From Crocinitomix sp. (lineage in GTDB: Bacteria > Bacteroidota > Bacteroidia > Flavobacteriales_D > Crocinitomicaceae), in NCBI GenBank assembly GCA_013138735.1, contig WTCE01000149.1, positions 1 through 43,444 of the forward strand: 43,444 nt of DNA, given 5' to 3'. Each line of letters starts with the position of its first letter. Within the stretch, counting starts at the first letter, position 1. Positions 1 through 31,635 of this stretch are shown here, piece by piece. The notes below the pieces were generated by a model that saw only the letters and a list, made by a program, of their open reading frames with translations, was not told where the DNA came from and did not search any database. Position numbers and translations under genes: made by a program.

Positions 1-533
1 ATCTAAAGAGAATGGCGCCATGTCTCTAAATCAACTTTCAGTACAAAAAGAACCGTCAGTCGTATCTTGCTGACACAAATTTATGACGAATTTTGCGTAT
101 TATTGATAACCAAAATGATTTTGTCCGGTTTTTATAGGGGGCTAGACCACAATACTAAATGGTAATATGATTACAACTTGTAATCGTTTCCGAGATAACG
201 GTAAAAATTACGCTTGCACTTATAAAAATCAGTTGTTTAAAAAAGAATCATCTTTTCAAAAAAAAATACTTCATCCACTTTCTGACCAAATGCGCTTTGA
301 ACAGTATAATCAGTTTTGTTTGAACCCCTCTTCACTATTAAACAAAGAAGACCCCACGATCCAAATTGAGTATTACGATTAAATCGAGAATATTCAAGGA
401 AGAGATAGAAAATGAAACCGCCATTTTCATAATTGATAATTGAAAAAACCACTTTCCCTCAACCAAACGGCCTTTTCACTCATTCTAGCCCTTCGAAAGC
501 CCTAAAACAGCCATATTCTCCGTTTATTGGAGT
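1..533. other. Region without a convincing gene
   Basis: No recognisable gene is seen here. A 71-codon open frame at 167-382 (+) and an overlapping one on the other strand show no family resemblance, no domain and no obvious ribosome-binding site, so neither is called. I found no good TTG-N19-TAnnTTTG promoter on the + strand. A GGAG motif five bases before the ATG at 534 is the only regulatory element I can point to. The left edge may contain the end of a neighbouring transcript. Confidence 0.5.
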
Positions 534-1403
534 ATGAAACCTGAATATTTCGCAATTCCAAAACCATGTTCGGCAGATTGGAATAAAATGACACCAACTG
601 AACAAGGAGCCTTTTGCACACAATGCAATAAAGAAGTTATAGATCTATACCCTGTTCCTTCTGACCAGATTAAAAAAACGATTGCTGCTAAAAACAATCC
701 TTGCATTAGAATTCTACAAAGTCAAATTGACGAGATGAATTTTACAGAATGGTTCAGGTCGCTCAATTTGGTGAAACAATTGCGCTATCTCTTTTTATTC
801 ACACTTTTACTCGTATTTCAGCAAAAAAGTCACGCTCAGGAAAGTGATACGACTTTCATCCCCTATTCAAATGAGTATTTGGATGAATTAGCTCTAAAAA
901 CGGAGGAAAAAGAAACTGCAATTTTGGAAGAACAAATTGACTCGAATGCAACAGCAATTTCACCCCCCTTTGGGATTCCCATTTGGGAAGGTCTCGAACT
1001 ACCAATAGGTGTTAATGACGGTTGGATGGGGACTTATCCTGGAACCCCGATTGACCCATGGGATGGATTAGAACTTTATGAATTTGCCATAGTAGGTGGA
1101 GGCATGTATTTCGAAATGCCACTAGAGACACCAATTTTAAATCAAATAATTCTTGATCAAAATGTTTATAAATTTAAAATTATTGAGAATCAATTACACT
1201 TCAATTATCAATCCTTTAAACATCAAAAAGTACGGATTAAAATCACAAAGGAAAATGGTGAAGTCGTATATTTCACACCAATCGAGCTAGGTTTAGGTGA
1301 AAATGCAATTATCTATTCTTTAGAAAAATTCGAATTGGGACATTATACGATAACACTTGAAACTGATTCAGAATCACAATCCACCGATATAATTTACCTT
1401 TAA
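534..1403 (+). CDS. Cys4-module membrane/secreted protein, paralogue 1 of 3
   Basis: Function unknown. The 289-residue protein opens with a module shared by the next two genes: an IPKPCSxxW start, then C12, C28, C31 and C57 (spacing C-x15-C-x2-C-x25-C), GAFC and EVID motifs, and a QIDEMN block near residue 64. A hydrophobic stretch at about 83-95, ending in a signal-peptidase-like SHAQ near 99-102, follows basic residues. The Cys module should therefore remain in the cytoplasm and the remaining ~185 residues be exported. That part is acidic with Pro/Gly-rich loops and ends in a beta-rich segment resembling a degenerate sorting or Ig-like domain without the YPNP motif. GGAG lies just upstream of the ATG. 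The four cysteines suggest metal or Fe-S binding, which is inference. Its nearest relative is the gene 37 bases downstream. Confidence 0.8.
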   Translation: MKPEYFAIPKPCSADWNKMTPTEQGAFCTQCNKEVIDLYPVPSDQIKKTIAAKNNPCIRILQSQIDEMNFTEWFRSLNLVKQLRYLFLFTLLLVFQQKSHAQESDTTFIPYSNEYLDELALKTEEKETAILEEQIDSNATAISPPFGIPIWEGLELPIGVNDGWMGTYPGTPIDPWDGLELYEFAIVGGGMYFEMPLETPILNQIILDQNVYKFKIIENQLHFNYQSFKHQKVRIKITKENGEVVYFTPIELGLGENAIIYSLEKFELGHYTITLETDSESQSTDIIYL

Positions 1404-1409
1404 TTCCAA

Positions 1410-1440
1410 CTATTCTAAAAGGTATGTTTATTTAGAATAG
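1410..1440 (+). promoter_or_regulatory. Perfect 10-bp hairpin abutting a start codon
   Basis: The arms CTATTCTAAA (1410-1419) and TTTAGAATAG (1431-1440) are perfect reverse complements around an 11-base loop, and the second arm ends directly before the ATG at 1441. There is no T-run, so it is unlikely to be an intrinsic terminator. If transcribed with the upstream gene, it would fold over the ribosome-binding region of paralogue 2 and could limit its translation or stop RNA decay between the two genes. The pairing is seen; the role is inferred. Confidence 0.6.
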
Positions 1441-2433
1441 ATGACAGCGTTTTTCTCTATACCAAAACCATGTTCCGAAAATTGGAATGAAATGGATGCG
1501 ACTACTCAAGGCGCCTTCTGCTCAAAATGCACAAAAGAAGTTATTGATTGCACGACCATCAAAACTGGTGAAATAAAGGCTGCTTTAACGACTAAAGCGG
1601 ATCCCTGTGTACGGATTTTTTCGGATCAAATTGACGAAATGAACTTTTTAGAATGGTTCAAATCATTGAGGCTAAAAATACAATTGAAATATTCGTTCTT
1701 ATTTGCTTTTTTGATTGTGTTTAATAACAATACTAAGGCGCAAGATACAATAAATGCTCCCTCAGTTAATCTGGCTCCATATCCCTCAAAAAATGATTCG
1801 TGCCATCAGGTTTATTCCTATGATCCGATCGTAGTTGAAGATCCGCTTGTTGCTTTAGACGCTTTAGATTCCTTAGCCAATTCAGAAACAGAAGGAATCC
1901 TAATCGACAGCACTTTGCAAACCGCTGATAGTTCAGCTGTTTTAAAAGTTGAAACGAACGTAGCGGAACAACTCGGAACCTCCATTGAATATGAGGAAAT
2001 GTGGATTGGAGATATCGCCTACGAGCCAGAATTCATTGGAGACATTGGCTGTACACCAACTACGGGATTTGTCGTTTTCGGCAACTGGATCGTGGAAGAA
2101 CCTTTAGCGCCAACTTCTCCATTTTTGCAAAACAACTCCGAACCATTTGAACTCATTACAAATTCGAACGATTTAGCATTAAACAATAGTCGCTTTTCAT
2201 TTTATATTGAAGGAGATTCACTTCGTTTTATGTCTTACGCAGTTGAATCTGAACGCATCCGAATTAAAATTGCAAAAAAAGGAGAAATAACCCCGTTTTA
2301 CTTTAAGCCCATTCAACTTGGACGGGGCAAAAACGAGATCATTTTCCCCTTGGACGATTTTGACAATGGCGCGTATATCGTTACCGTTGAAGGCGAACAA
2401 AGTTCTAAAGCAATAGAGTTGATTTATTGGTGA
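1441..2433 (+). CDS. Cys4-module membrane/secreted protein, paralogue 2 of 3
   Basis: Function unknown; 330 residues and clearly a duplicate of the preceding gene. The N-terminal module has C11, C27, C30 and C56 with the same C-x15-C-x2-C-x25-C spacing, plus an extra C37, and the same GAFC, KEVID and QIDEMN motifs. A membrane segment at about 80-95 is followed by a possible cleavage site near TKAQ, again placing the Cys module on the cytoplasmic side and the rest outside. The exported part is acidic and Ser/Asp/Glu rich. The last ~60 residues (RIKIAKKG, then a YFKPIQLG-like strand) align by eye with the end of paralogue 1 but lack a typical T9SS YPNP start. The start at 1441 is fixed by alignment of the module with both paralogues. 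Confidence 0.8.
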   Translation: MTAFFSIPKPCSENWNEMDATTQGAFCSKCTKEVIDCTTIKTGEIKAALTTKADPCVRIFSDQIDEMNFLEWFKSLRLKIQLKYSFLFAFLIVFNNNTKAQDTINAPSVNLAPYPSKNDSCHQVYSYDPIVVEDPLVALDALDSLANSETEGILIDSTLQTADSSAVLKVETNVAEQLGTSIEYEEMWIGDIAYEPEFIGDIGCTPTTGFVVFGNWIVEEPLAPTSPFLQNNSEPFELITNSNDLALNNSRFSFYIEGDSLRFMSYAVESERIRIKIAKKGEITPFYFKPIQLGRGKNEIIFPLDDFDNGAYIVTVEGEQSSKAIELIYW

Positions 2434-2445
2434 GAAAAGTACTTA

Positions 2446-2540
2446 GATCGCTTCGCTATTAGATTTTGAATCCTGCGGCACTCATACTTTCACAAATAGC
2501 ATTGCAAGCGCAGGATTACAAATCCGGCGAAGCACTAGTG
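2446..2540. repeat. REP-like imperfect palindrome
   Basis: Arms at 2463-2477 and 2509-2523 share the inverted core ATCCTGCG/CGCAGGAT with flanking near-complementary TTTGAA/TTACAAA. A second inverted match (GCTTCGC near 2449-2455, GGCGAAGC near 2526-2533) extends the pairing outward. The result is a long imperfect hairpin about 85 bases across, more GC-rich than its surroundings and lying between two genes. This is the shape of REP/BIME elements mobilised by RAYT (IS200/IS605-related) transposases. No transposase is in the window, so the class is inferred from shape only. Confidence 0.5.
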
Positions 2541-2591
2541 CAGAGGATCTTCACAGCACAACAAACTGAGTTATGAGTACTAAAGACTAAC

Positions 2592-2626
2592 GACTTGAGA
2601 CTTGAGACTTGAGACTTGAGACTTGA
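2592..2626. repeat. Tandem repeat, GACTTGA x5
   Basis: Five exact head-to-tail copies of the 7-mer GACTTGA, followed by a partial unit. It lies between the palindrome above and the start of paralogue 3. A 7-bp unit is prone to slippage. It is 60-95 bases upstream of the ATG at 2688, so length changes could move promoter or leader elements of that gene without touching its reading frame. Confidence 0.9.
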
Positions 2627-2687
2627 GAGTAAAAGCTAAATGAACCAATTTCATCTGTAAGTGTACCGAAAGAAAAACAAGTCAATT

Positions 2688-3677
2688 ATGAGAGTTAATA
2701 TACCAAATCCTTGCAGTGAAAATTGGGCTGAAATGTCGACGACACAACGCGGAGCTTTTTGCCAGAAATGTGCTGTTGATGTGATTGATTTCAGTAAAAA
2801 AAATGCACAAGAGGTTAAAGAAACTTTAAAAGCCAATATTGGTAAACACATGTGTGGTCGATTTTCAACAACTCAATTAACAGACTTGTCGCATGCCTAT
2901 CAAGTTTGGGAGAATCAATCCGCCAGAACATTTCAGAGTAAATTTTTATGGGCTTGTATGATTGCATTTGGCTTGACATTGTTTACGGGCTGCGAAAATT
3001 CCATAGCGCAAGATCACGCAATTAACTCCTTTAATTCACATCAAATTAATTTAGCAATTGACGATTCTACTAAAACAGATTCGACTATAACAACTTCATA
3101 TATTGATCGCACTATCAACGGGCAAGTTGAATATACTGACTTTGTGAAAGGAGATATTGATATTAGCGAACCTGAACTTGAAATAAAGATTTTAGGTGAA
3201 TTTGTTTCAGAAAATGACGAAATTGATGAAGTAATAGAACCTATGGTTTGTGATACAATAACTGAAGATAGCACGGTAAAAACACCTCCGAGTCCTCTAG
3301 TTATTCAACCAGATAAAGTTAGACACGTTATGGGGAAAATTGCACCACCTCCCCGTTTCAATGATTATTTAGCCGATACCGTGAAAGTTGAGACTATTCC
3401 TGAAAGTATTGAAACTGCCACAATCAACGCATTGGTCTATCCGAACCCAACGACAGGTGTTGCAAAATTGAAAGTTAACGTAACAGAAGCTGAATATTAC
3501 ACCATAGAATTATACAGCTTTCAAGGTGAAAAAATAAACACGATTTTTACTGGTGTAATTGAAAACAATCAACGAACTTTTGAGATCGATTTATCCAACT
3601 ATCCCTCAGGAACCTATCTGGTAAAAATCACCTCAAATTATGTTGCGCATGTTTTAAAGATCATTAAAGTGAATTAA
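2688..3677 (+). CDS. Cys4-module protein with T9SS type A sorting tail, paralogue 3 of 3
   Basis: Function unknown; 329 residues from the ATG at 2688. An in-frame GTG at 2661 would add nine residues, but alignment with the paralogues favours 2688. The Cys module is again present (C9, C25, C28, C56; C-x15-C-x2-C-x27-C, the last one in a CGRF motif), followed by a membrane segment around 85-103. That segment ends in FTGC (a weak lipobox) and then SIAQ, so it could be a lipoprotein or be cut by signal peptidase I. After a Thr/Asp/Glu-rich linker the protein ends in a clear T9SS type A sorting domain (VYPNPTTG, then SGTYLVKI, then a short basic end). A cytoplasmic Cys module in front of an export signal, on a T9SS cargo protein, is the odd feature. 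Confidence 0.82.
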   Translation: MRVNIPNPCSENWAEMSTTQRGAFCQKCAVDVIDFSKKNAQEVKETLKANIGKHMCGRFSTTQLTDLSHAYQVWENQSARTFQSKFLWACMIAFGLTLFTGCENSIAQDHAINSFNSHQINLAIDDSTKTDSTITTSYIDRTINGQVEYTDFVKGDIDISEPELEIKILGEFVSENDEIDEVIEPMVCDTITEDSTVKTPPSPLVIQPDKVRHVMGKIAPPPRFNDYLADTVKVETIPESIETATINALVYPNPTTGVAKLKVNVTEAEYYTIELYSFQGEKINTIFTGVIENNQRTFEIDLSNYPSGTYLVKITSNYVAHVLKIIKVN

Positions 3678-3697
3678 ATCCTATCCTTTTTCGTTTA

Positions 3698-3727
3698 TTT
3701 GCGTATTAGAATTTAAGGCTAATATTG
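3698..3727 (+). promoter_or_regulatory. Possible promoter for the 4,6-dehydratase gene
   Basis: TTTG at 3698-3701, an 18-base spacer, then TAATATTG at 3720-3727: one mismatch from the Bacteroidota consensus TAnnTTTG. The expected transcript start would give a leader of only a few bases before the GTG at 3740. Confidence 0.4.
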
Positions 3728-3739
3728 AATTAAACTGTT

Positions 3740-5617
3740 GTGATACTTTTACCGAAACAGAATACACCTAGATGGATCATTTTTGGAGTTGATATCTTCA
3801 TTAGTGTTCTCGCATTGTTGGTGGCTTATTTAATTCGATTTGATTCCACCGATTTACCTTTAGATGAAGAGTTAGCCATCTTCAAACTAGGGCTTCCAGT
3901 CTACATTATTATCCGCGGTATTTGTTTTTATATTTTCAAAACCTATAGAGGCATTGTTAGACATACCAGTACTGAGGACATCAAAAAAATTGCTTTGGGC
4001 GTAACCATGGGTACTTTTGCCATGATCGCTGTATCTGCCGTTAAGTATATTTGGTATGATAGTCACTTTTTGTTTCCGTCCTCTATTATAATGGCAGAAT
4101 ATTTTGTCTGCATCTTCTTTTTATTGGTTTCTCGCTTCGCCATTAAGTTAATCTACATGGAAGGGATAAAGCGGACAAAGGAAATGATTCCAACTGTGAT
4201 TTATGGCGCTGGAATTTACGGTGTAATCACCAAGCACACCATTGAAAAAGAATCTGGCTTAGATGGTAAAATCATTTGTTTTGTAGATGACAATAAAAAA
4301 CAATTAGGCAAAACATTAGAAGGACTTAAGATTTTTCACACCTCAACATTGGAGCATATCATTAAAAAAGAAGGAGTTAAGAAATTAATTGTCGCCATAA
4401 AAAATCCAGACAAAGCAAAAAAGCGAACGGTAATTGACATGTGTTTAACGCATAATGTAGAGATCTTGAACGTTCCTTCACCTACCAAATGGATTAATGG
4501 CGAGTTCACTTCAAATCAGATACAAAAAGTACACATTGAAGATTTGCTGGGCCGTGAATCCATTAAACTTGATCCTGAAAGATTGTCAGACGAGTTTAAT
4601 CATAAAACGATTTTGGTAACTGGTGCTGCGGGAAGCATAGGAAGTGAAATTGTGCGACAATTGGTTCAATACGCACCAGAAAGGATTATTTTGTTAGATC
4701 AAGCCGAATCACCTTTATATAATTTACAAGTTGAATTAAAGGAGAAAGGGGTACTTCATTTAACTGAAACCGTAATTGGCGACATTCGGAATTATGAACG
4801 TTTAGAGAATGTTTTTAAAACCTTTAAACCAGATTATGTTTTTCATGCGGCGGCTTATAAACATGTCCCACTAATGGAAAACAATCCGTCAGAAGCAATT
4901 ATTACGAATGTGCTGGGCAGTAAAAACTTGGTGGACTTATCCTTGTCCTATAATGTTGAACGCTTTGTGCTAATTTCAACAGACAAAGCCGTGAACCCTA
5001 CTAACGTCATGGGTTGTTCAAAAAGAATTGCTGAAATTTATGCCCAATCAGCCAATCAATTAGGAAAAACGAAATTTATAACCACCCGCTTTGGAAATGT
5101 ATTGGGCTCGAACGGCTCCGTGATTCCGCTCTTTAAAAAACAAATTGAAAATGGCGGACCGCTAACGGTAACCGACAAAAGAATCACTCGTTTTTTCATG
5201 ACCATTCCAGAAGCTTGCCAATTGGTATTAGAGGCTGAATCAATGGGGAAAGGCGGTGAGATTTTTGTGTTTGACATGGGTGAATCGGTACGGATTTATG
5301 ATTTAGCCAAAAAAATGGTGAAGTTAAGTGGACTTGAATTGGGCAGAGACATTGAAATTAAGATTACAGGGTTAAGACCTGGTGAAAAATTATACGAGGA
5401 ATTATTGACTAACGAGGAAAACTCGCAAGAAACCCATCATCCGCAAATATTAATTGCAACGGTGCGCGACTATAATTTTGAAGAAATATCAAACGATATA
5501 CTCATTTTGACAGCACTTTTTGATTGTCAAGACAATCTTAAAATTGTGAAGAAAATGAAGGATATTGTTCCTGAATTTATCAGCAACAATTCAGAATTCG
5601 AAAAATTAGACAAATGA
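3740..5617 (+). CDS. CapD/WbpM-type nucleotide-sugar 4,6-dehydratase, membrane bound
   Basis: Predicted to convert a UDP-HexNAc (typically UDP-GlcNAc) to its 4-keto-6-deoxy form at the inner membrane, an early step toward bacillosamine-, QuiNAc- or FucNAc-type sugars. The 625 residues match the long WbpM/PglF class: four membrane helices in the first ~135 residues, a first Rossmann-like domain with GAGIYG near 155, and a second, catalytic SDR domain with TGAAGSIGSE near 290. In place of the YxxxK motif it has the family's MGCSK near 425-429, preceded by STDKA. It begins with GTG; the hydrophobic N-terminus follows at once, which supports that start. The next gene overlaps by four bases (ATGA), so the two are translationally coupled. 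It could supply a deoxy amino sugar to the glycan genes downstream. Confidence 0.9.
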   Translation: MILLPKQNTPRWIIFGVDIFISVLALLVAYLIRFDSTDLPLDEELAIFKLGLPVYIIIRGICFYIFKTYRGIVRHTSTEDIKKIALGVTMGTFAMIAVSAVKYIWYDSHFLFPSSIIMAEYFVCIFFLLVSRFAIKLIYMEGIKRTKEMIPTVIYGAGIYGVITKHTIEKESGLDGKIICFVDDNKKQLGKTLEGLKIFHTSTLEHIIKKEGVKKLIVAIKNPDKAKKRTVIDMCLTHNVEILNVPSPTKWINGEFTSNQIQKVHIEDLLGRESIKLDPERLSDEFNHKTILVTGAAGSIGSEIVRQLVQYAPERIILLDQAESPLYNLQVELKEKGVLHLTETVIGDIRNYERLENVFKTFKPDYVFHAAAYKHVPLMENNPSEAIITNVLGSKNLVDLSLSYNVERFVLISTDKAVNPTNVMGCSKRIAEIYAQSANQLGKTKFITTRFGNVLGSNGSVIPLFKKQIENGGPLTVTDKRITRFFMTIPEACQLVLEAESMGKGGEIFVFDMGESVRIYDLAKKMVKLSGLELGRDIEIKITGLRPGEKLYEELLTNEENSQETHHPQILIATVRDYNFEEISNDILILTALFDCQDNLKIVKKMKDIVPEFISNNSEFEKLDK

Positions 5618-6012
5618 TAACAACTAAAATCCAATTGCGATTTAGCGATTTTGATATGGGCGGACACGTTCATAATGCAGCATATCTCAATTATTTTGAA
5701 TCAGCACGAATTGGATTTTTCATGACTGGCTTTGGACAAAACTGGGATTGGAAAAAAGATGGATTAATCCTTAAGAAGAATACCATTGAATATCATATTC
5801 CGACTTTTATTGAAAACGAAATTCGCGTAGAAGTATCCTGCAACCACATAGGTTCAAAAAGCTTTACCCTTACCTACTCTGTTTTGGATGCCGAAAACAA
5901 GTTAAAGGCATATGGCGAATCAGTTGTTGTATCCTTCGATTATAATCAACAAAAAACGGTTAATATAACCGACAAAATGCGAAAACTTTTATCAGAACAT
6001 TTGATCGATTAA
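5614..6012 (+). CDS. Acyl-CoA thioesterase, hotdog fold (YbgC/FadM-like)
   Basis: The 132-residue protein is a single 4HBT hotdog domain and probably hydrolyses an acyl-CoA thioester in the cytoplasm. It has the family's early strand and helix: RFSDFDMGGHVHNAAYLNYF at about residues 9-28, including the usual catalytic Asp and the GH(V)xN turn before the long helix. Its ATG overlaps the stop of the dehydratase gene (ATGA), so the two are co-expressed. A direct role in sugar synthesis is not known; release of an acyl group used for an N-acyl sugar is only a guess. The substrate cannot be read from the sequence. Confidence 0.85.
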   Translation: MITTKIQLRFSDFDMGGHVHNAAYLNYFESARIGFFMTGFGQNWDWKKDGLILKKNTIEYHIPTFIENEIRVEVSCNHIGSKSFTLTYSVLDAENKLKAYGESVVVSFDYNQQKTVNITDKMRKLLSEHLID

Positions 6013-6123
6013 AAAGCTGCGCTCACATACATCTACTCTTTTCTGTGAATAAATTGAAATGGGCATAATAATTGCCTTCATATTATTATCTTCAACACAG
6101 AATAAGAAAAAACGAATCAAAAT

Positions 6124-7221
6124 ATGAAAATTGCATTTTTAACAGCACTTTTATTTCCCATCAGTTTCCTTTACGGACAAACGGACACTACAAAAACCAT
6201 TACTAAGGCTCCAGCTACAGCTTCAAACGTACCGAAATGTAGAGACTTATTAATGGTACCTGATTGCCGTGGCTACGTTTATGATGAGCCAAGACAGATT
6301 GAGGGAAAAGAGGTTGTTATCGTCTTTCATACCAAATCGGGAAAACCATTTACAGGAGACTGTAAGGTATGCTATGATAATGGTGTTTTACAAATGCACA
6401 TTGACTATGCAAAGGGTTATTTAACTGGTGTTGACACTGTTTATTATCAAAACGGTTTTGTAAAACTAATTACAGCACATGATGCTTTAGGCTATGGCAA
6501 AGAAGATGGACTTTGGAAATATTACCGAAAAGATGGCAGTTTAAAATGGGAAAAGAACTATGTCATGGGATTGGCCCAAGGTGAACACCGTTTTTATTTC
6601 CCAGATTCTACCATCTATAAAATTGAAGTATATAAAAACAACCAGTTAAACGGAAAAAAACAAGAATACTACAGCAACCATTCTTTGAAGAAAGAAGTGG
6701 AATATAAAAATGGAAAATGGGATGGTAAATACATTACTTACTTTGAAGACGGAAAAGTAGAATCTGAGCAAGAATATGTTCGGGGAGAAAAAGATGGCCC
6801 CTCTTCTTATTATTATAAAAATGGTATTTTATTCTACAACGAAAATCATGAAAACGGATCACGCGAAGGGAACTTTAAACGTTTTTATGCTACAGGAAAA
6901 ATGTGGACCAAGGAAACCTATAAAAAGGATCAACGCAACGGAGAATTTGAAGAGTTTTACGACAATGAAAAAAACACCATCAAATACCGCGCTACCTATA
7001 AAAAAGGCCTTAAAACATACGAAATGTATTATGATGAGTTTGGCGGTGAAGTAATGTCACCTGAACGGATAGAACAAGTTAGAAAAGCGAAAGAAGCTGA
7101 GGCCAATGGCACTGTTGGTGAGGAAGAAGAAGGTGAAGGCGAAGAGGAAAAAGAGGGTGACAAAAAGAAAAAAAAGAAGAAAAAGAAAAATGAAGAAGAA
7201 GAGGACGAGGATGAAGACTAA
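6124..7221 (+). CDS. Secreted MORN-variant (YwqK-like) repeat protein with charged tail
   Basis: The 365-residue protein has a signal peptide (to about residue 18, ending LYGQ) and then about eight MORN-variant repeats of the form G-K-W/Y-x-Y-x-G-x-L-x-x-E-x-x-Y (residues ~95-300). This architecture is called YwqK-like and is very common in exported proteins of Bacteroidota. Two early CxxC-like cysteine pairs (near 39-50 and 80-84) may form disulfides. After the repeats comes a ~30-residue low-complexity end: Glu/Gly rich, a run of nine Lys, then Glu/Asp only. There is no T9SS tail. The database label 'antitoxin' attached to YwqK homologues has no support here. A periplasmic or surface role is likely; the function is unknown. 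Confidence 0.82.
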   Translation: MKIAFLTALLFPISFLYGQTDTTKTITKAPATASNVPKCRDLLMVPDCRGYVYDEPRQIEGKEVVIVFHTKSGKPFTGDCKVCYDNGVLQMHIDYAKGYLTGVDTVYYQNGFVKLITAHDALGYGKEDGLWKYYRKDGSLKWEKNYVMGLAQGEHRFYFPDSTIYKIEVYKNNQLNGKKQEYYSNHSLKKEVEYKNGKWDGKYITYFEDGKVESEQEYVRGEKDGPSSYYYKNGILFYNENHENGSREGNFKRFYATGKMWTKETYKKDQRNGEFEEFYDNEKNTIKYRATYKKGLKTYEMYYDEFGGEVMSPERIEQVRKAKEAEANGTVGEEEEGEGEEEKEGDKKKKKKKKKNEEEEDEDED

Positions 7222-7301
7222 TTCATCTGAGTTTTACAAATAGCGGAATAATTCAAAAAAATCCGTAATTTACAAGTAGGGAACAAAAAACCTAACCTAC
7301 T

Positions 7302-8654
7302 ATGAAATATCTGTTCACGCTACTAATCGCTGTACTAGGAATACATTCTTTTGCACAAACTCCAGCATTGCGTTTCGACGGTGTTAATGACTATGTAAAT
7401 CTTGGAACAGAGGTGGCAACAGATGTCCGCACCATTGAATTTTGGTTTAAGTTGGACGAAGATATCACCCCTGCACTCGCGACTCATATCTCGCTCGTTG
7501 TTCGTGACAATACCACATCTAATTATGACGAAATTGTTTTGAATTTTGATCCGAGTGGAACAGCTCATCCCGGAAAAATAAGATTCGGAGTGGTAAAAAC
7601 TTGGGTTGATTATTCTGATATTTTCACAAATAATGATCATTGGAACGCAGACCAATGGTACCATATCGCTGCGGTAGTTCATCCCGCATTAGGAATGATG
7701 CTATTTGTGGATGGCATAAAACAAGATGACACCCACCCCAATACAATTCCGCCACCTGCCTTAGATAAAATCACAACTATTGGATGTTGGGGCGAGTTAA
7801 ATAATCGTTTTTTTGATGGGACGATTGATGATGTTCGATTTTCATCAGAAGGTTTATATACAGAAGATTTTATACCACCATGCCCAGATTTACCTTACGA
7901 AGGTTCAACGATAGCCTTATGGCACTTGAATGAAGCAATTGGTAGTTTAGCGCACGATTCTGGTTTAACACATGATGCAGATATCGAAGGTGCATCTTGG
8001 GGCTTTGGACCGATATGCTGTACCTCTTCCGAAAACACTATGCCGCCCATTTTTTTATGCAGAGGACAAAGCGCTGAAGTTTTTGGTGATTATGTTACAG
8101 AAGAAGGAACTTATATTGATAGCCTAATTAACATTGGAGGTTGCGACAGTATTGTTTATCAAGAAGTTTATGTTTCAGATGATGTGATAGATGATGGCAT
8201 TTCAATTACTGGTGACCTTTTTACGGCTGACCAGGCTGGAGCAACTTATCAATGGATGAATTGTAATACGGGTGAAATTATTCCGGGTGAAATCAACCAG
8301 TTTTACGAACCTACTGATAACGAACCTTATGCAGTTATTATAACTATTGATGGCTGCATAGATACTTCAGCGTGCATTACAATTCAGCAAAGCGGAATTA
8401 AAGTCAATTCTTTGCTTGACTTTAAAATCTATCCAAATCCTGCCGACCATCTTGTTACCATTAGCGTCAACAATTTTACAAGCCCAATTCAATTAACAAT
8501 TTTTGATTTAACTGGCAAAAGAATTTATTCCGAACAAATGAATACTGAGAAACTTGAGTTAAATACAAGTAATTTTGTAGCTAGTATATATTTGGTAAAA
8601 CTGCTTACAGCAAAAGGTTCAATGCAAGTTTTTAAACTATACGTTCAGCATTGA
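7302..8654 (+). CDS. LamG-domain surface protein with T9SS type A sorting tail
   Basis: The 450-residue protein has a signal peptide (to ~18, ending SFAQ) and a LamG/concanavalin A-like domain at ~20-225 (FDGVNDYVNLG, EFWFKL, WYHIAAVV, FVDGIKQDD, FDGTIDDVR). A small module ending in CDSIVY follows near 245-285, then a linker and a T9SS type A sorting domain from ~375 (IYPNPADH, FDLTGKRIY, ASIYLVKL). It should be exported by Sec and then displayed or released through the T9SS. LamG domains bind glycans or proteins; the ligand is unknown. Three other LamG genes with the same FDGVNDYV opening lie in this window. It ends 12 bases from the convergent flippase gene. Confidence 0.88.
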   Translation: MKYLFTLLIAVLGIHSFAQTPALRFDGVNDYVNLGTEVATDVRTIEFWFKLDEDITPALATHISLVVRDNTTSNYDEIVLNFDPSGTAHPGKIRFGVVKTWVDYSDIFTNNDHWNADQWYHIAAVVHPALGMMLFVDGIKQDDTHPNTIPPPALDKITTIGCWGELNNRFFDGTIDDVRFSSEGLYTEDFIPPCPDLPYEGSTIALWHLNEAIGSLAHDSGLTHDADIEGASWGFGPICCTSSENTMPPIFLCRGQSAEVFGDYVTEEGTYIDSLINIGGCDSIVYQEVYVSDDVIDDGISITGDLFTADQAGATYQWMNCNTGEIIPGEINQFYEPTDNEPYAVIITIDGCIDTSACITIQQSGIKVNSLLDFKIYPNPADHLVTISVNNFTSPIQLTIFDLTGKRIYSEQMNTEKLELNTSNFVASIYLVKLLTAKGSMQVFKLYVQH

Positions 8655-8666
8655 TTGGACTGAGTC

Positions 8667-10142
8667 CTAATTTTTACTGATAAATTTTCGTTTCATCTTC
8701 AAAAGCCACTCTCGCATATCAGGCGCCAAATTGAATTTTAAAATAAGCGTCCAATAAATAATCGTAATGCCAAAGACATAGGTTAATATTAACCAGAATG
8801 GTGGAATAGGCAGCTCAACAAATGATATAAATAAGGTAAGTACAACACCAATTAAAACGATTTTCGCAAAACCTTTGTCAAAAGGTTGCAATCCGTAAAC
8901 ACGTTTAAGGTAATACCAACGTCCTAGGTTGACTGCAAAAATGGCGAGCGCAGATGCAGCAGCCGCTCCTAAAACTTGCCATTCACTAATAAAAAAATAG
9001 TTTAACGTTATCACCAATAAGGCCAATACAATATTAAAGTAAGTATTGACTTTATAGCGTTTTGAAGTTAGTACAACCTCCATGTTCAATCCTGTCATCA
9101 TGTCAAACAACTGACCTAAGCCTAAGAAAAAGAAAACATAAAGACCGTCTTCATATTTTGGTAAAAAAGTCAAAGCCGGAGCAAAACAGGCCCAGCCTAC
9201 CAAAAACAAGAAAACGGCAATTACAGTTTGGTTAATGACACTCTTTCTATAAATACTGTCAATCTTATCCAAGTCATCCGTTTTCCATGACTCTGTAAAA
9301 ACAGGAACTGCAATTCGCTTAATTCCTCTGGAAGGAATTCCAATTAATGCTGCAGCAAAGAAAATAACCGAATACAAACCAACAGCATCAGTCCCCACCA
9401 TTTGATTGAGCATTAATTGATCAATTGTAATGATAATAACACCAGAAGTGGCTGCTATGATTCCAAAAATGCCAAAATTGAACATTTTTTTATTAGTTGC
9501 GCGATCAAAGAGTTCTTTTTTGGGTAAGGTTAATTTTTGTGTTTTTATAATCGCCAAAAAGATGATAATTAATCCCGGAATGCACAAAGCTATTGTATAA
9601 ACATAAGCCAATCCTTCATAATCTACCCAGCCCAGCCAAAAAAGCACAATACCGAGTAAAACAATTAGCTTCAACAAAATTCCTTCCAAAAATGCTCCCG
9701 TAACCGAACTAAAAAGCATCCGCAAGTAAACATCTAAATTCCGAAAGAAGATCCTGAAAAAAATGATTGGGAAGATTAAATAGACCAAGGATCGAATCAA
9801 CTTTTGTTCATCTCCCGTTCCTACAAAAACATCTTGAAATATGTAAAAGGTAATTTCCCCAGTTAAAACACCAATCAAAGAAAAAATGAGTCCAAAAATT
9901 AAGAATCCTGAATGTCCATTATGTTCATTTCTGAAATTAGAAAATACCTGAAACGTAATTTGCGCAAATCCTAAACAAAATATAATGGCAATAACATTAG
10001 AAATAGAGTTCAATAAGGATAAAGCACCTATTTCTGTCTTCGTTAAATAAACAGCAAATAACAATTGCGACGTCACCCCTATTCCAATCCCTAAGAAAGA
10101 AATAACGGTTGTTCTAAGTGCTTGTTTTTGAATTATGCCCAA
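8667..10142 (-). CDS. Wzx-like oligosaccharide flippase (MOP superfamily)
   Basis: The 491-residue protein consists of about 14 hydrophobic helices with short basic loops, in the pattern of RfbX/Wzx polysaccharide transporters, and ends in a basic tail. It should move a lipid-linked oligosaccharide across the inner membrane. The start is near a conserved-looking hydrophobic opening (RTTVISFLGIGIGV). It is transcribed divergently from the nonulosonic acid operon across a 194-base gap and fits as exporter of the glycan made by the surrounding genes. The carried glycan cannot be determined from sequence. Confidence 0.88.
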   Translation of the reverse strand: MGIIQKQALRTTVISFLGIGIGVTSQLLFAVYLTKTEIGALSLLNSISNVIAIIFCLGFAQITFQVFSNFRNEHNGHSGFLIFGLIFSLIGVLTGEITFYIFQDVFVGTGDEQKLIRSLVYLIFPIIFFRIFFRNLDVYLRMLFSSVTGAFLEGILLKLIVLLGIVLFWLGWVDYEGLAYVYTIALCIPGLIIIFLAIIKTQKLTLPKKELFDRATNKKMFNFGIFGIIAATSGVIIITIDQLMLNQMVGTDAVGLYSVIFFAAALIGIPSRGIKRIAVPVFTESWKTDDLDKIDSIYRKSVINQTVIAVFLFLVGWACFAPALTFLPKYEDGLYVFFFLGLGQLFDMMTGLNMEVVLTSKRYKVNTYFNIVLALLVITLNYFFISEWQVLGAAAASALAIFAVNLGRWYYLKRVYGLQPFDKGFAKIVLIGVVLTLFISFVELPIPPFWLILTYVFGITIIYWTLILKFNLAPDMREWLLKMKRKFISKN

Positions 10143-10293
10143 TTGTTCGTCTTTAAAGTGTAAATGAACGAAAATTTCTGTAATTCAATACTTGCCTTAT
10201 GATTTTTTAACAACAGAGCAAAGTGAATGAAAAGCAAATGCTGAATCAACGCTTTACTGCATTGCATGACCTTTACTACAATACATAGCGCGG

Positions 10294-10320
10294 ATATTAT
10301 TAATAATATTGCTAACTTTG
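10294..10320 (+). promoter_or_regulatory. Operator-like palindrome next to the -7 box of the nonulosonate operon
   Basis: A perfect 16-bp palindrome, ATATTATTAATAATAT (10294-10309), is followed three bases later by TAACTTTG (10313-10320), a full match to the Bacteroidota -7 element TAnnTTTG. The ATG is at 10337. No TTG is present at the expected -33 position, so the palindrome fills what would be the promoter spacer. A dimeric regulator binding there could control the operon; this is inference from position and symmetry. Confidence 0.5.
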
Positions 10321-10336
10321 TTATAGGACTAAATTT

Positions 10337-11386
10337 ATGAATTTCAACGACTCATTTCAAATAGGAAATTTTACAATTAGCGAAGGTTCACCTGTGTTTA
10401 TTATTGCCGAAGCTGGCGTAAACCATAATGGTGACATTGAGTTAGCAAAACAGCTAATTGATGTTGCAGTTGCTGCAGGAGCTGATGCCGTAAAATTTCA
10501 ATCATTCATTACAGAAGAATTGATTTTAGATAATGTGGAAAAAGCCACTTATCAAAAAGAAACAACCGAACGTACAGAAACTCAGTTTATGATGCTGAAA
10601 AAACTGGAGTTTGCTGTTGATAATATGAAGCTGTTAAAAGCCTATTGCAAAACCAAAAATATCCTCTTTCTGACAACTCCATTTGATGAAAAAAGTTTAG
10701 AATTGTTAGATGAATTGGATTTAGAAGCTTATAAAATTTCATCAACCGACACAACAAATATTGGGTTCATTCGCAAAGTGGCTAAAAAAGGCAAACCAGT
10801 TATTTTATCAACGGGTATGTGTTATATGCATGAGGTTGAAAAAGCCGTACAAACGATTGCAGAAATAAATCCTAATGTAGTTCTATTACAATGCACATCC
10901 AATTATCCGGTAAAGGCGAACGAAGTACATTTAAACGTGATAAAAACGTTTAAAAATAAGTTTAACATGGTCATTGGATTTTCCGATCATACGCCATCAA
11001 TTGGTGCATCACCTTATGCTGTAGCAATGGGTGCAAAAGTGGTTGAGAAGCACTTTACGCTTGACAAAGAAATGGAAGGCCCCGATCATAGAGCGTCTTT
11101 AGATCCTGAAGAATTAAAAGCGTATATCGCAGAAATTAGAATAGTTGAGCAATATTTAGGAGAGGGTTCTAAAACACCTACGGAGAGTGAAAAAGATACG
11201 CGCAATAGATTACAAAAATGCTTAGTTGCAGCCAAAGCAATTAAAAAAGGAGAAGCTTTTGACGACGACAACATAGTTGCGAAACGCACAGGTGGAAATG
11301 GAATTTCGGCCATAGATTATGACAATGTCATTCATAAAATTGCATCACGCGATTTTGATAAAAACGAAATTATAATTACCGAATGA
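10337..11386 (+). CDS. neuB: Nonulosonic acid synthase (NeuB/LegI/PseI family)
   Basis: Predicted to condense phosphoenolpyruvate with a six-carbon N-acyl sugar (ManNAc or a 2,4-diamino relative) to make a nine-carbon sialic-acid-like sugar. The 349 residues match family length. A TIM-barrel part carries EAGVNHNGD near 27, TTPFDE near 115, STGM near 153, SDHTPSIG near 217 and FTLDKEMEGPDH near 238-249. A C-terminal SAF (antifreeze-like) domain starts near 285 with CLVAAKAIKKGE. It is the first gene of a five-gene operon and overlaps the next by ATGA. The sequence alone does not say whether the product is Neu5Ac, legionaminic or pseudaminic acid; the aminotransferase in the same operon favours a diamino type. 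Confidence 0.92.
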   Translation: MNFNDSFQIGNFTISEGSPVFIIAEAGVNHNGDIELAKQLIDVAVAAGADAVKFQSFITEELILDNVEKATYQKETTERTETQFMMLKKLEFAVDNMKLLKAYCKTKNILFLTTPFDEKSLELLDELDLEAYKISSTDTTNIGFIRKVAKKGKPVILSTGMCYMHEVEKAVQTIAEINPNVVLLQCTSNYPVKANEVHLNVIKTFKNKFNMVIGFSDHTPSIGASPYAVAMGAKVVEKHFTLDKEMEGPDHRASLDPEELKAYIAEIRIVEQYLGEGSKTPTESEKDTRNRLQKCLVAAKAIKKGEAFDDDNIVAKRTGGNGISAIDYDNVIHKIASRDFDKNEIIITE

Positions 11387-12003
11387 GAAATTTGATAGTT
11401 ATAGGAACCGGTGGACATGCAAGACCTGTAGTCGACATTGCGCAATTATTGAACTTGCACCTTGTAGGTTGTATCGACCTTAATTATAAAGGAAATTTTG
11501 AGGATATATTAGGAGCACCTGTAGTTGGTGGCCTAGATCAACTCAGTAATTATGCGGCTGAAGACACAGACGTTTTTGTAGCGATAGGAAATAATTTAGA
11601 ACGTAAAAAAAATAGTACTGATCTGCAAAACAAGGGTTATAAGCTTATAACATTAATTCATCCCACTGTTATTTTTCCAAAGCATATAAAAATTGGTAAA
11701 GGCAGTTTAGTTTGTGCTGGCGTAATTCTAAACTCTGATCTTGAAGTAGGTAAAGGATGCATTATTAATACAGGAGCCATTATTGATCATGAAACTGTAA
11801 TTGGGGATTATTCTCACATTGCTCCCGGAGTTAAAATTGCAGGTCGTGCAAAAATTGGCGAACTGGCTTTTATTGGAATTGGCAGTGTAATTATTGACAA
11901 AATTAAAATTGGCGACAATGCTATTATTGGTGCTGGAAGTGTAATACTTGATGATGTAGTTGAAAACACCACGGTTGTTGGACTTCATAAAAAAATGAAA
12001 TAA
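11383..12003 (+). CDS. neuD: NeuD/PglD-like sugar O- or N-acyltransferase
   Basis: Predicted to transfer an acetyl group to the nonulosonic acid or an amino-sugar precursor. The 206-residue protein has the two-part architecture of NeuD/PglD. A small nucleotide-sugar-binding Rossmann domain (GTGGHARPVVDI near 8-19) precedes a left-handed beta helix of hexapeptide repeats (~90-190; KIGKGS, VGKGC, IGELAF, IGDNAIIGAGSV). The IDHETVIG segment near 134 carries the expected catalytic His. It overlaps neuB by four bases and is two bases from the next ORF. PglD acts on an amino group and NeuD on a hydroxyl; either is possible, and the aminotransferase in the operon makes the PglD-type reaction attractive. 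Confidence 0.87.
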   Translation: MRNLIVIGTGGHARPVVDIAQLLNLHLVGCIDLNYKGNFEDILGAPVVGGLDQLSNYAAEDTDVFVAIGNNLERKKNSTDLQNKGYKLITLIHPTVIFPKHIKIGKGSLVCAGVILNSDLEVGKGCIINTGAIIDHETVIGDYSHIAPGVKIAGRAKIGELAFIGIGSVIIDKIKIGDNAIIGAGSVILDDVVENTTVVGLHKKMK

Positions 12004-17375: not shown

Positions 17376-19064
17376 TTAATCTGAATTTAACACATCCAAC
17401 ACTATTCCCACAGCCTTCTCCCCTTTTTCGTAAAAGTAATTGGCTACAAATTTATCGTAGGCGTCTTGATCAATATCTAGTTTTTCTTTACCTAAAATTT
17501 CAACTAGATTATCTAAAGAACGAACGGGGATTCCTACACCTTGTTTAATATAATTGACCAAATCGGCATCTAAATAATCCAATACCAATAGCGGTTTATT
17601 GAACGGTATAAATTCGGCACCAACGGTTGAATAACTTGTAATCAAAAGGGATGCTACTTCAAAATGTGTTTGTAAATCTGATTCGCGATCAATTAATAAA
17701 TTGTTAAAACCGACCTCATTGGCAAGATCTAAAAAAAATTGATCAGACAATTCAGCGGGATGTGGCCGTAATACCAATTGATAGTTGGCGGTAAATTGTT
17801 TTGTTACGGCAAAAACATCACGTAATTCACGTTTTCTTAGGTTCGTATCGGGTTGTGGTTGTGTTGCATAAACAATGACCTTTTTATCCTTTTGAATTGC
17901 TGCGTTCTGCTTTCGGTTAATATTGATAGGCTCTAACCGACCTGCGGTGATTACTTGTGCTTTTTGATAGCCTCCTTTATCGATCAATAATTGGGTGAAA
18001 TAATTCCCCCAAGTAAATGTAATATTGGGCAAAATTGGTGGATGTTTATATTTCCCAAACATATAGGCCGGATGCAAGTCATAGATTGCGCCATGTTGAA
18101 TTCCGTAAACTTTTACATTATGTTGGCTAGCTGCAAATTGAATGGCTTTTTGCTGTGCACTATTTTCATTGATGAACAAAATCCCTTTATAATTTGTCTT
18201 TTTAAAGAAGCCACAAAAGGCACGATAGCGCAGATAGTAGATATAAAAACTCATTTCATTTTGGCGAAATAAAGAAAGAATTATTTTAGCGTTTCCTTCT
18301 GTTTTATTGCTCAGGTTTGTCGAAAGGGTTTTAAACGATTTTCTGAATTTCCGAAGATCAAGAAGCCATTTTGCTCCAAAAAAATAATCTCCCATGAGTT
18401 GATCCACATTGGGATTTGCGTTATATACGCTTGCTTCTAATTTATGCGCCTTATTCGGATTAAAACTCTCACGATTGAATATTTTATCGCATTTTAATTC
18501 AATGGCTCCAAAACGTTGATCCTTCCCTTCTCTATCATCTTCAATTCTAGACAGGATCAGGTTTTCATGCTGCTGTTTGTGCTTAAATTTGGTTTTTTTA
18601 AGCATTGTAAACAATTCGCCGAGCATTTTCTTTTTATTTGCTTTTGCCCGCTTTTCAGTTGGTACAAATTGTAAACGATCTACAGCAATAAAGGCCTTTA
18701 AAGTTTGATCACTTGTAATGACAATGCCAGTTTCATTTTCAACCAAAAACTGACGAATACAAGCCAATCTTAGAAAAAAAGTTCGGTAAGCAAAGTACAT
18801 TCGGAACTGTTCAAAAAACCAAACATCTACTCCATTTTCTTTGGCAAAAGTTTGAAATAAGTCTTCGTTTTCATTGTAAAAACCAACCACCTCATCAAAA
18901 GCTTGCTCATTAATCAGTTTTTGCTCCTCTGGTTTTAGTAGAATTTGTTGATAAGCTGAGTTTGCTGAACTATAAGAGGAAGAATAACACGCTTGCTCAG
19001 GTTTTGGCAGCAGATTATCTTTAAAATCACCGTCTATATAATAAGCCATTTGAGCATTTTCCAT
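17376..19064 (-). CDS. Putative GT-B glycosyltransferase of surface polysaccharide synthesis
   Basis: The 562-residue protein has no signal peptide or membrane helix. The C-terminal half looks like a GT-B donor domain of the capsule/CDP-glycerol transferase type: VYGIQHGAIYDLHPAY near 330, a TWGNYF segment, VITAGRLEP, LRPHPAE near 440, and SYSTVGAEFIPFNKPLLVLDY near 495-515, where the early Glu usually contacts the nucleotide sugar. The N-terminal ~280 residues are Lys/Phe-rich and not recognised. Capsule-type and sialyl-type transferases share this QHG and HP pattern, so transfer of the CMP-nonulosonate made nearby is one possibility, but the donor cannot be read from sequence. It is cotranscribed with the LamG/PKD gene upstream (39-base gap). 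Confidence 0.6.
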   Translation of the reverse strand: MENAQMAYYIDGDFKDNLLPKPEQACYSSSYSSANSAYQQILLKPEEQKLINEQAFDEVVGFYNENEDLFQTFAKENGVDVWFFEQFRMYFAYRTFFLRLACIRQFLVENETGIVITSDQTLKAFIAVDRLQFVPTEKRAKANKKKMLGELFTMLKKTKFKHKQQHENLILSRIEDDREGKDQRFGAIELKCDKIFNRESFNPNKAHKLEASVYNANPNVDQLMGDYFFGAKWLLDLRKFRKSFKTLSTNLSNKTEGNAKIILSLFRQNEMSFYIYYLRYRAFCGFFKKTNYKGILFINENSAQQKAIQFAASQHNVKVYGIQHGAIYDLHPAYMFGKYKHPPILPNITFTWGNYFTQLLIDKGGYQKAQVITAGRLEPININRKQNAAIQKDKKVIVYATQPQPDTNLRKRELRDVFAVTKQFTANYQLVLRPHPAELSDQFFLDLANEVGFNNLLIDRESDLQTHFEVASLLITSYSTVGAEFIPFNKPLLVLDYLDADLVNYIKQGVGIPVRSLDNLVEILGKEKLDIDQDAYDKFVANYFYEKGEKAVGIVLDVLNSD

Positions 19065-25525: not shown

Positions 25526-26760
25526 TCTCTTATTCCGCAAAAATCTAATTCTAGGGTAGATTCATTTGCAATTAAATCTTTAAACTCTTTATGCCCAACC
25601 AAAAACACAACAATGTCAGCCGTTTGATAAGCATCTTTATAAGTAGACAAATCTACATTTAAATAATGATTTTCTTTTCCGCTAGAAAGATTAGGTTCTA
25701 CAATGCTATACTCCGCATTTAGATTTGCTGTTTTTAAAGCCTTTACCACTTGAATTGCCGGTGACTCTCTTAAATCGTCAATATTTGGCTTAAAGGCCAA
25801 GCCCATTAAAGCCACTTTTGGTGGACGATTTTCTTTTTGACTAAAAGTTAAAATTTCGTTTTTCACTTTTTCAATTACCCAAAGCGTTTTATAGGAATTG
25901 ATTTCGCGCGCTGTGCGAATCATTTTGGCCTCTTTAGGATAATCGGCAACGATAAACCAAGGATCTACTGCGATACAATGTCCACCAACACCAGTTCCAG
26001 GATTGAGAATGTTTACACGCGGATGCTTATTCGCTAGTTGAATAAGTTCCCAAACATTAATGTTTGCCTGTTCGCAAATGATTGAAAGTTCATTGGCAAA
26101 TGCAATGGAAACGTCTCTAGATGAATTCTCAACGAGTTTACACATCTCGGCCGTTTGCGAATTGGTGACGTACAAATTAGACGACACAATTTTGCGATAA
26201 AACTCTTTTGTAATTTGAGAAGAAGCTTCATTTATACCGCCAATAACACGATCATTATGCTCTAATTCATAAATTACCTTACCGGGTAAAACACGCTCAG
26301 GACAATAAGAAATATAGATTTTATTGATGAGTTCTGGCCGTTCTTCAAATATAATGTCGCGCATTTTCTGCGTCGTACCAATAGGTGATGTCGATTCAAT
26401 AATGAAAAGATTTCCTTCTCTTAAAAATGGAATAACAGCCCTTGTTGCATTTTCAACATAAGAAATATCGGGTTGAAATCCTTCTTTAAAAGGAGTGGGA
26501 ACGGCAATCATAAAAACATCAGCATAATCAGGAACTGTGTCCGCTTTTAATGTCTTTTTACTGACAACATCTTTTACGATTCCTGATAAATCTGGTTCTA
26601 CAATATGGATTTCACCATTGTTGATCGTATCAACCACTGATTGCGTAATATCTACTCCTAATACGGTGAATTTTTTGCTGGCCATTAATGCTGCTGTAGG
26701 CAAACCAATGTACCCCAACCCTACCATCACTACTTTCTCTAACTTATTCTCCATACGCAT
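25522..26760 (-). CDS. wecC: UDP-N-acetyl-D-mannosamine dehydrogenase
   Basis: Oxidises UDP-ManNAc at C6 with two NAD+ to UDP-ManNAcA, a uronic acid of ECA, capsule and other envelope glycans. The 412 residues match family length. The N-terminal NAD domain has GLGYIGLPTAAL near 15; the central part has FIIESTSPIGTT, the YCPERVLPG segment near 152 and NPGTGVGGHCIAVDPWF near 255-270 with the catalytic Cys; the C-terminal UDP-binding domain has GLAFKPNIDDLRESPA near 320. The ATG overlaps the stop of the glycosyltransferase gene upstream (TAATG), and the stop overlaps the wecB start. The order wecC-wecB makes ManNAcA the predicted product of the pair. Confidence 0.92.
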   Translation of the reverse strand: MRMENKLEKVVMVGLGYIGLPTAALMASKKFTVLGVDITQSVVDTINNGEIHIVEPDLSGIVKDVVSKKTLKADTVPDYADVFMIAVPTPFKEGFQPDISYVENATRAVIPFLREGNLFIIESTSPIGTTQKMRDIIFEERPELINKIYISYCPERVLPGKVIYELEHNDRVIGGINEASSQITKEFYRKIVSSNLYVTNSQTAEMCKLVENSSRDVSIAFANELSIICEQANINVWELIQLANKHPRVNILNPGTGVGGHCIAVDPWFIVADYPKEAKMIRTAREINSYKTLWVIEKVKNEILTFSQKENRPPKVALMGLAFKPNIDDLRESPAIQVVKALKTANLNAEYSIVEPNLSSGKENHYLNVDLSTYKDAYQTADIVVFLVGHKEFKDLIANESTLELDFCGIRE

Positions 26761-31371: not shown

Positions 31372-31635
31372 CTAATCTTCTTTAATCTCTTCGAAATCAA
31401 CAAAATCACCATCTGACTTTTTGGACTTACCAATTTTTGATATGGTAGTTTTGCCAAAATTCTCCTTGGCATCTCGCACCATTTCGTCTGACGCATTTTG
31501 TTTACGTTGGACTTGATTGTGCTCATCCATAGTGCGTTTAGCAATCATCATTTTGCCTACTAAACGCAACAATACAAACACGCCGAGTATAATCAGCACC
31601 ATTTTTAAAAACCCTGCTATACTCAGTAAAACCAT
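31372..31635 (-). CDS. DUF4834 family small membrane protein
   Basis: The 87-residue protein has one N-terminal membrane helix (~5-25, GFLKMVLIILGVFVLLRL) followed by a basic and then acidic cytoplasmic tail (ending DFEEIKED). The pattern is the DUF4834 family, short membrane proteins found in Bacteroidota. The start overlaps the carB stop by one base (TAATG), so it is translated with carB. Function unknown; the linkage with carB is a positional fact only. Confidence 0.75.
   Translation of the reverse strand: MVLLSIAGFLKMVLIILGVFVLLRLVGKMMIAKRTMDEHNQVQRKQNASDEMVRDAKENFGKTTISKIGKSKKSDGDFVDFEEIKED

Follow-up and report, generated by a model that had tools for sequence, protein, structure and literature searches.

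Three tandem genes of Crocinitomix sp. encode proteins that open with a common N-terminal module of about 65 residues carrying four cysteines (the Cys4 module); they lie in a 43,444-nucleotide stretch of forward-strand DNA, referred to here as the window (GenBank assembly GCA_013138735.1, contig WTCE01000149.1, positions 1 to 43,444). The module looks like a conserved, cytoplasm-facing domain that belongs to an extended, cleavable signal peptide and not to a lasting membrane anchor, because motifs for signal peptidase I or II sit at a steady place behind the hydrophobic core in its relatives. Judged from the sequences, it is very probable that the first 100 residues or so form such an extended signal peptide. 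The sequences show a family with conserved cysteines, purifying selection on the module, a fixed order of module, linker, core and cleavage motif, a narrow spread of leader lengths, and variable cargo.

The original prediction described three tandem proteins with a shared N-terminus, and both the open reading frames (ORFs) and the alignments agree with it. The cysteines are spaced C-x15-C-x2-C-x25-C in copies 1 and 2 and C-x15-C-x2-C-x27-C in copy 3, as had been stated, and the PCSxxW, GAFC and VID motifs occur in all three; 21 of the 74 alignment columns are identical across the three modules. That the module precedes the only hydrophobic segment also held up, as a hydropathy scan found no such segment before the module and one after it in each copy. 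No Pfam or NCBIfam model scored above the cut-off over the module in the three window proteins. A sub-cut-off Pfam match of copy 3 to HMG_box_2 (E 0.015), together with an HMG box as the best sequence match among known structures (E 0.032, over 19 residues), was taken as chance.

The same genome holds eight copies of the module: the three in the window, three on contig C149, including an adjacent pair, and one each on C99 and C120. With these eight and the 127 collected members, the observation is far beyond chance. The 127 members came from 80 further stretches, the window and four loci of the same genome, and 119 more from 79 named-genome loci brought the set to 246; removal of identical N-termini left 242, of which 238 were usable after L113, one ORF of L081, L175 and L159 were dropped. 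The two genome collections may share species under different names, and the members are not all independent. Full-protein family scans covered 115 members, namely the three window proteins and 112 from 140 of 198 dissimilar proteins.

Loss of the cysteines in homologues had been named in advance as grounds for abandoning the idea; this was checked, and they are conserved. Across the 127 members, the four columns hold only cysteine where ungapped (125, 126, 126 and 127 rows; two rows have a gap at the first cysteine, and the second and third columns are gapped in a single row each). Asp36 (125 of 127, profile numbering), Gln64 (124), Gly24 (117), Met18 (117) and Trp15 (114) are also strongly conserved, in a set whose profile-based selection favours conserved rows. 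All four cysteines are invariant in a 106-row alignment of the 79 named loci and the window, and in a 115-row alignment the first is nearly invariant (at least 90%), which may stem from trimming at the start. In 21 pairwise comparisons among seven Chryseobacterium loci, some of these comparisons being saturated in dS, the median ratio of nonsynonymous to synonymous substitution (dN/dS) was 0.081 for the module vs 0.253 for the next 34 residues, and these ratios indicate that the module is under purifying selection. Tandem neighbours point the same way: in 80 pairs from 50 of 158 loci, median identity was 65% in the module and 30% in the mature part, and the module was the more alike of the two in 79 pairs, from which it follows that the leader has been reused on diverging cargo. 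Three short ORFs that had been candidates for stand-alone module proteins (L113, 5903-6500; and L028 and L023, both around 1480-1840) were rejected, as they are genes interrupted by an in-frame stop at the domain border. The stop falls between module and signal core in L113 and L028 and right at the cleavage site in L023, and the frame continues behind it.

Signal cores and putative cleavage sites were assigned in the 238 members by hydropathy and motif-pattern scans. The best hydrophobic core of 12 residues begins, at the median, 26 residues past the last cysteine (5-95% range 21-33). Behind it, 154 members carry an A-x-A^Q-type site, 43 a lipobox, 36 another A-x-A, and five no site that the patterns recognised, of which three show a cysteine and one an AQ that the patterns missed; under a slightly different rule the counts were 153, 44, 37 and 4. 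Both main motifs are concentrated in the stretch that follows the module. In the first 50-residue window, starting 15 residues after the last cysteine, the strict pattern [AVSTGLI]xAQ was found in 128 of 238 members vs 19/228, 2/192 and 2/89 in the later windows, and the lipobox in 44 of 238 vs 10/228, 2/192 and 2/89. Glutamine occupies position +1 in 154 of the 190 putative signal-peptidase-I members; this “Q-rule” is given for about 71% of signal-peptidase-I substrates of Bacteroidota (PMC10653852). The arrangement is that of a Q-rule Sec signal peptide, with a core followed by A-x-A and glutamine at +1 or by a lipobox, on a predicted leader with a median length of 101 residues (5-95% range 94-110, n = 197) rather than one of 20-30.

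The type of site is not fixed within the family. On a tree of 210 modules left after removal of near-duplicates (206 labelled, read without branch support), it changes at least 15 times, vs 37-41 times in 30 shuffles, and both types occur together in five of 50 tandem arrays. The window counts among these five with the caveat that in copy 3 SIA^Q, another candidate site, follows within a few residues of the lipobox-like FTGC, which also makes the peptidase for this copy uncertain. Because the type changes repeatedly on the tree, removal of the leader seems to have been kept, whichever peptidase performs it, and this weighs most against a lasting anchor. The original prediction had offered three roles for the module, and these fared differently. 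That most members keep a signal peptidase I or II motif after the core, and that the motif type has changed so often, disfavours a sensor that stays anchored or a device for permanent retention; a membrane-tethered piece that is cleaved from its cargo fits best.

What follows the leader is diverse. At E <= 0.01, the 115 members matched 24 Pfam families, among them CarbopepD_reg_2 (66 members), CarboxypepD_reg (62), Por_Secre_tail (31), TonB_C (4), CHU_C (2) and Plug (1), and 60 of the 115 gave a partial match to the SusC/RagA model at the same threshold. By eye, the C-terminus of many carboxypeptidase-like members is a short tail of basic and aromatic character that looks amphipathic (L125, L140, L129, L107, L163, L188, L192 and L213), and the mature part of five Chryseobacterium members (L206, L207, L223, L226 and L227) ends like a TonB-receptor plug fragment. 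Copy 3 carries the type IX secretion system (T9SS) sorting tail that had been expected of it; no significant tail was found in copies 1 and 2 (Pfam E 0.35 and no match; local profile E 0.042 and 0.032). Two other T9SS-tail proteins in the window (7302-8654 and 19104-21500) lack the module and begin with signal peptides of the usual short kind that end in AQ, so the module would be an addition to export and not a requirement for it.

The charges around the hydrophobic core bear on the topology. Mean net charge in the 238 members is +2.06 in the 12 residues before the core and +0.64 after it, with the charge before exceeding that after in 158 members, equalling it in 51 and falling below it in 29. 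This suggests that the N-terminus of the module lies inside, as a trend across the family and not member by member, and on that basis the earlier claim that the module stays in the cytoplasm is probably right.

Taken together with what we infer about fold, metal, actual cleavage, topology, partner and role, these features can be arranged into a mechanism. Residues 1 to about 65 would fold in the cytoplasm as a small domain, with a metal ion, most plausibly zinc, held by its four cysteines; a Cys4 metal site is, in our view, likely. Next would come a linker of about 25 residues and then a signal core of the ordinary type, which would enter SecYEG while the N-terminus stays inside, and signal peptidase I (at A-x-A^Q) or II (at the lipobox) would part the leader from the cargo. 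As the leader would be removed, the module on it could do its work only ahead of or in the course of export, or else as part of the leftover leader. Before or at cleavage it could serve as a cytoplasmic handle, held by a partner such as the Sec machinery, a chaperone or a membrane scaffold, whose grip would route, delay or gate the export of this set of proteins. A handle of this kind, which binds metal and acts on export ahead of cleavage, is the reading we favour most, with about an even chance of being correct.

The best-surviving rival is that the proteins are uncleaved one-pass membrane proteins, in which the module is a cytoplasmic sensor or output domain and the periplasmic part (carboxypeptidase-like, TonB-like, plug-like or with a T9SS tail) reads the state of the envelope. 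The N-in charge bias, the conservation of a cytoplasmic domain and the TonB-related cargo of some members (TonB_C, Plug and the partial SusC/RagA matches) would all suit a transducer of this kind. However, most members have signal-peptidase motifs at a constant place, in 23 of 127 the hydrophobic core is too weak to pass a hydropathy cut-off over 17 residues, and the T9SS tails of 31 of the 115 imply release to the cell surface, so we consider an uncleaved transducer unlikely. Somewhat less probable still is a role after cleavage, in which the piece of about 100 residues remains tethered in the inner membrane as a small cytoplasmic regulator that reports completed export. The stronger constraint on the module than on the rest and the complete membrane segment kept behind it are compatible with this, but signal peptides are degraded as a rule, and the three stand-alone module ORFs that we examined are broken genes and not natural leader-only genes. 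It is doubtful that the module is a redox switch, with cysteines that form disulfides on oxidation or lose their metal and so alter export under stress. The four conserved cysteines include a C-x2-C pair, but they show no conserved resolving pattern, no redox-linked neighbour gene was seen at 85 loci or among the 25 commonest flanking families, and in the reducing cytoplasm a structural metal explains four conserved cysteines at least as well.

Two further explanations can be dealt with briefly. A membrane anti-sigma-like regulator would share the layout of a cytoplasmic C-x2-C domain, one hydrophobic segment and an exported domain, but it is very improbable: no sigma-factor family is among the 25 most frequent of the 233 Pfam families matched by 143 flanking genes, only two neighbour clusters look sigma-like by eye (each in three of the 85 loci), and none of the 24 Pfam families of the 115 members is an anti-sigma model. 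Wrongly called start codons are hardly credible, for although an internal methionine that could serve as the start of a short signal peptide is present in 63 of the 238 members, copies 1 and 2 among them (residues 68 and 67), the other 175 have none and the upstream module is conserved as protein, with a dN/dS of about 0.08.

Those internal methionines nevertheless belong to a group of observations that count against an extended, cleavable, metal-binding leader. The 36 “other A-x-A” sites are a weak class, as A-x-A is common and the class has no chance control. The N-in charge bias is equal or reversed in 80 of 238 members, and a decayed copy, L028, which lies outside the set of 127, has no fourth cysteine. 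The structural models are of moderate quality: AlphaFold2 gave a predicted local distance difference test (pLDDT) of 76.7 and a predicted template-modelling score (pTM) of 0.46 for residues 1-111 of copy 3, and 79.8 and 0.62 for the module of L202 (106 rows). In the latter, strands at 33-37 and 57-59 flank a helix at 43-52, with the C-x2-C pair (28, 31) before the first strand and the last cysteine (57) opening the second, a modelled layout that could bring the pair and the last cysteine together. Foldseek found no match to these moderate models in the PDB at E <= 0.001, which says little because the domain is so small. Finally, the family has no constant gene partner that might act as receptor for the handle, the widest neighbour cluster among 1028 genes from 85 loci being present in nine loci. 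This cluster reads as TonB_C-type lipoproteins. Lipoprotein genes of this type without the module (L133:2028-2618 and in eight other loci) lie beside some module genes, and TonB_C was found in five of 143 flanking genes, a similar cargo with an ordinary leader. Those 143, out of 146 flanking genes of 80 loci, matched 233 Pfam families, the commonest of them in five genes.

Signal peptides that carry a conserved extension are in themselves a known kind of feature. The extended signal peptide region (ESPR) of type 5 secretion proteins is a conserved N-terminal extension of about 25 residues that precedes a normal cleavable signal sequence on many different cargoes, and it has been proposed to slow passage through Sec, with mixed evidence (PMC8151025). 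The present module resembles ESPR (PF13018) in being a conserved extension ahead of a cleavable signal sequence with varied cargo, but it is about 65 residues long, has four conserved cysteines and occurs in Bacteroidota, whereas ESPR is about 25 residues long and belongs to type 5 secretion. PF13018 is not among the 24 Pfam families of the 115 members (E <= 0.01), and their cargo is CarboxypepD_reg-like, T9SS-tailed or TonB_C, not that of type 5 secretion. The YSIRK/GXXS signal peptides on surface proteins of Gram-positive bacteria offer a second likeness, as they too have a task that precedes translocation; YSIRK signals guide precursors to the cross-wall (PMC12004944). Unlike the module, theirs is a short motif without cysteines on cell-wall proteins, and no YSIRK model was found among the Pfam matches of the 115. 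It is by analogy with these two systems, the proposed slowing of Sec passage by ESPR and the routing by YSIRK, that an export handle is preferred.

A third comparison comes from zinc-ribbon envelope proteins. GltJ/AgmX of Myxococcus and TcaA of Staphylococcus combine a cytoplasmic Cys4 zinc ribbon that acts as a docking site with a membrane segment and an exported part, and their membrane segments are permanent anchors. The layout is similar, but the module itself matches no zinc-ribbon family, as zinc ribbons and zinc fingers were absent from the Pfam matches of the 115 members and from the 25 of 30 NCBIfam families covered. The earlier statement that no function had been described agrees with our search, which found no description in the literature it reached, most subscription journals being outside it. 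Likewise, no four-cysteine domain of this size was found as a signal-peptide extension in that literature, which included few subscription journals, nor in the Pfam and NCBIfam scans of the 115 members, which covered 25 of 30 NCBIfam families and gave hit positions for the first member only.

Similar N-termini had been mentioned for other Bacteroidota proteins, and profile searches place them in one class, Bacteroidia. A nine-row profile matched 129 of 395 genomes of the class, in 76 of 196 genera. Across a sample of the phylum, the eight-copy profile A3 matched 24 of 198 genomes, including one weak match outside the class (G096, E 2.4e-4), which the broader 106-row profile did not repeat; the latter also matched 24 of 198, namely 24 of 49 genomes within the class and 0 of 149 outside. 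Dependence of the module on T9SS was considered and rejected. SprA is present in 385 of the 395 genomes of the class, so there is no T9SS contrast within it, and in the phylum sample it is present in 48 of 49 genomes in the class and 106 of 149 outside, class counts that for both module and SprA were tallied from listings, with 24 unlisted SprA-less genomes assigned outside the class by kinship row order. The distribution of the module follows the class, not T9SS. In a scan of named genomes, at least 577 of 592 candidate stretches were confirmed; the 79 loci kept are all Bacteroidota by title, among the closest matches listed, which is not proof of absence elsewhere. None of 28 candidate stretches in viral contigs was confirmed, and a viral origin was rejected. 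Three plasmid records hold a relative, and in two of them the annotation (“carboxypeptidase-like regulatory domain-containing protein” and “energy transducer TonB”) is derived from the cargo and silent on the N-terminal module; the third record carries no annotation.

The coordinates of the three genes and their parts are collected in Table 1. Copy 3 was listed as an ORF from a GTG at 2661 (2661-3677, 338 aa), and the module alignment begins at the ATG at 2688, which on sequence grounds is the better placed start.

Table 1. The three tandem genes and their module, leader and tail features, in window coordinates
Feature	Position	Strand	Description	Basis
Copy 1 gene	534..1403	+	289 aa	ORF and module match in own genome
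Copy 1 Cys4 module	534..731	+	residues 1-66; C12, C28, C31, C57	alignments
Copy 1 whole leader, predicted	534..836	+	101 residues; SHA^Q after residue 101	sequence and motif scan
Copy 2 gene	1441..2433	+	330 aa	ORF and module match in own genome
Copy 2 Cys4 module	1441..1635	+	residues 1-65; C11, C27, C30, C56; extra module cysteine C37	alignments
Copy 2 whole leader, predicted	1441..1740	+	100 residues; TKA^Q after residue 100	sequence and motif scan
Copy 3 gene from ATG	2688..3677	+	329 aa	ORF and alignment start
Copy 3 Cys4 module	2688..2882	+	residues 1-65; C9, C25, C28, C56	alignments
Copy 3 leader to lipobox cysteine, predicted	2688..2990	+	101 residues	sequence and motif scan
Copy 3 lipobox-like FTGC	2982..2993	+	Cys = residue 102	sequence
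Copy 3 T9SS type A sorting tail	3435..3662	+	Por_Secre_tail	Pfam PF18962 5.5e-12; TIGR04183 2.1e-10

Two repeats lie in the DNA between copies 2 and 3. One is a perfect 7-bp tandem repeat of GACTTGA (5.3 copies, 2592-2628) that ends 59 bases upstream of the ATG of copy 3; three such units in a row occur at no other place in the genome assembly searched, and the repeat could be liable to slippage, in a position close to the promoter. The other is an imperfect inverted repeat (2462-2570, with arms at 2462-2477 and 2509-2524), parts of which recur at 14 further places in the genome (24-45 bases, 85-96% identity), resembling a dispersed palindromic element. No RNA families were found in window positions 1-12000. 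The contig also carries a gene for the large chain of carbamoyl-phosphate synthase (31635-34451, minus strand) and genes of surface-polysaccharide type (3740-5617, 17376-19064 and 26760-28067).

Signal peptides are usually seen as disposable address tags of 20-30 residues, and here a conserved domain of about 65 residues sits inside an apparently cleaved leader in about a third of the genomes sampled from the class. A more far-reaching possibility, which we regard as improbable, is a class of signal peptides specific to Bacteroidota in which the cytoplasmic zinc or redox state gates, through a folded, metal-loaded sensor domain in the leader, whether or where a whole group of surface, periplasmic and TonB-related proteins is exported, after which the leader is cut. 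If the module does belong to a cleaved leader, predictions of topology, start codons and lipoproteins would be affected for the proteins that carry it, and these bacteria would have a modular layer of export control.

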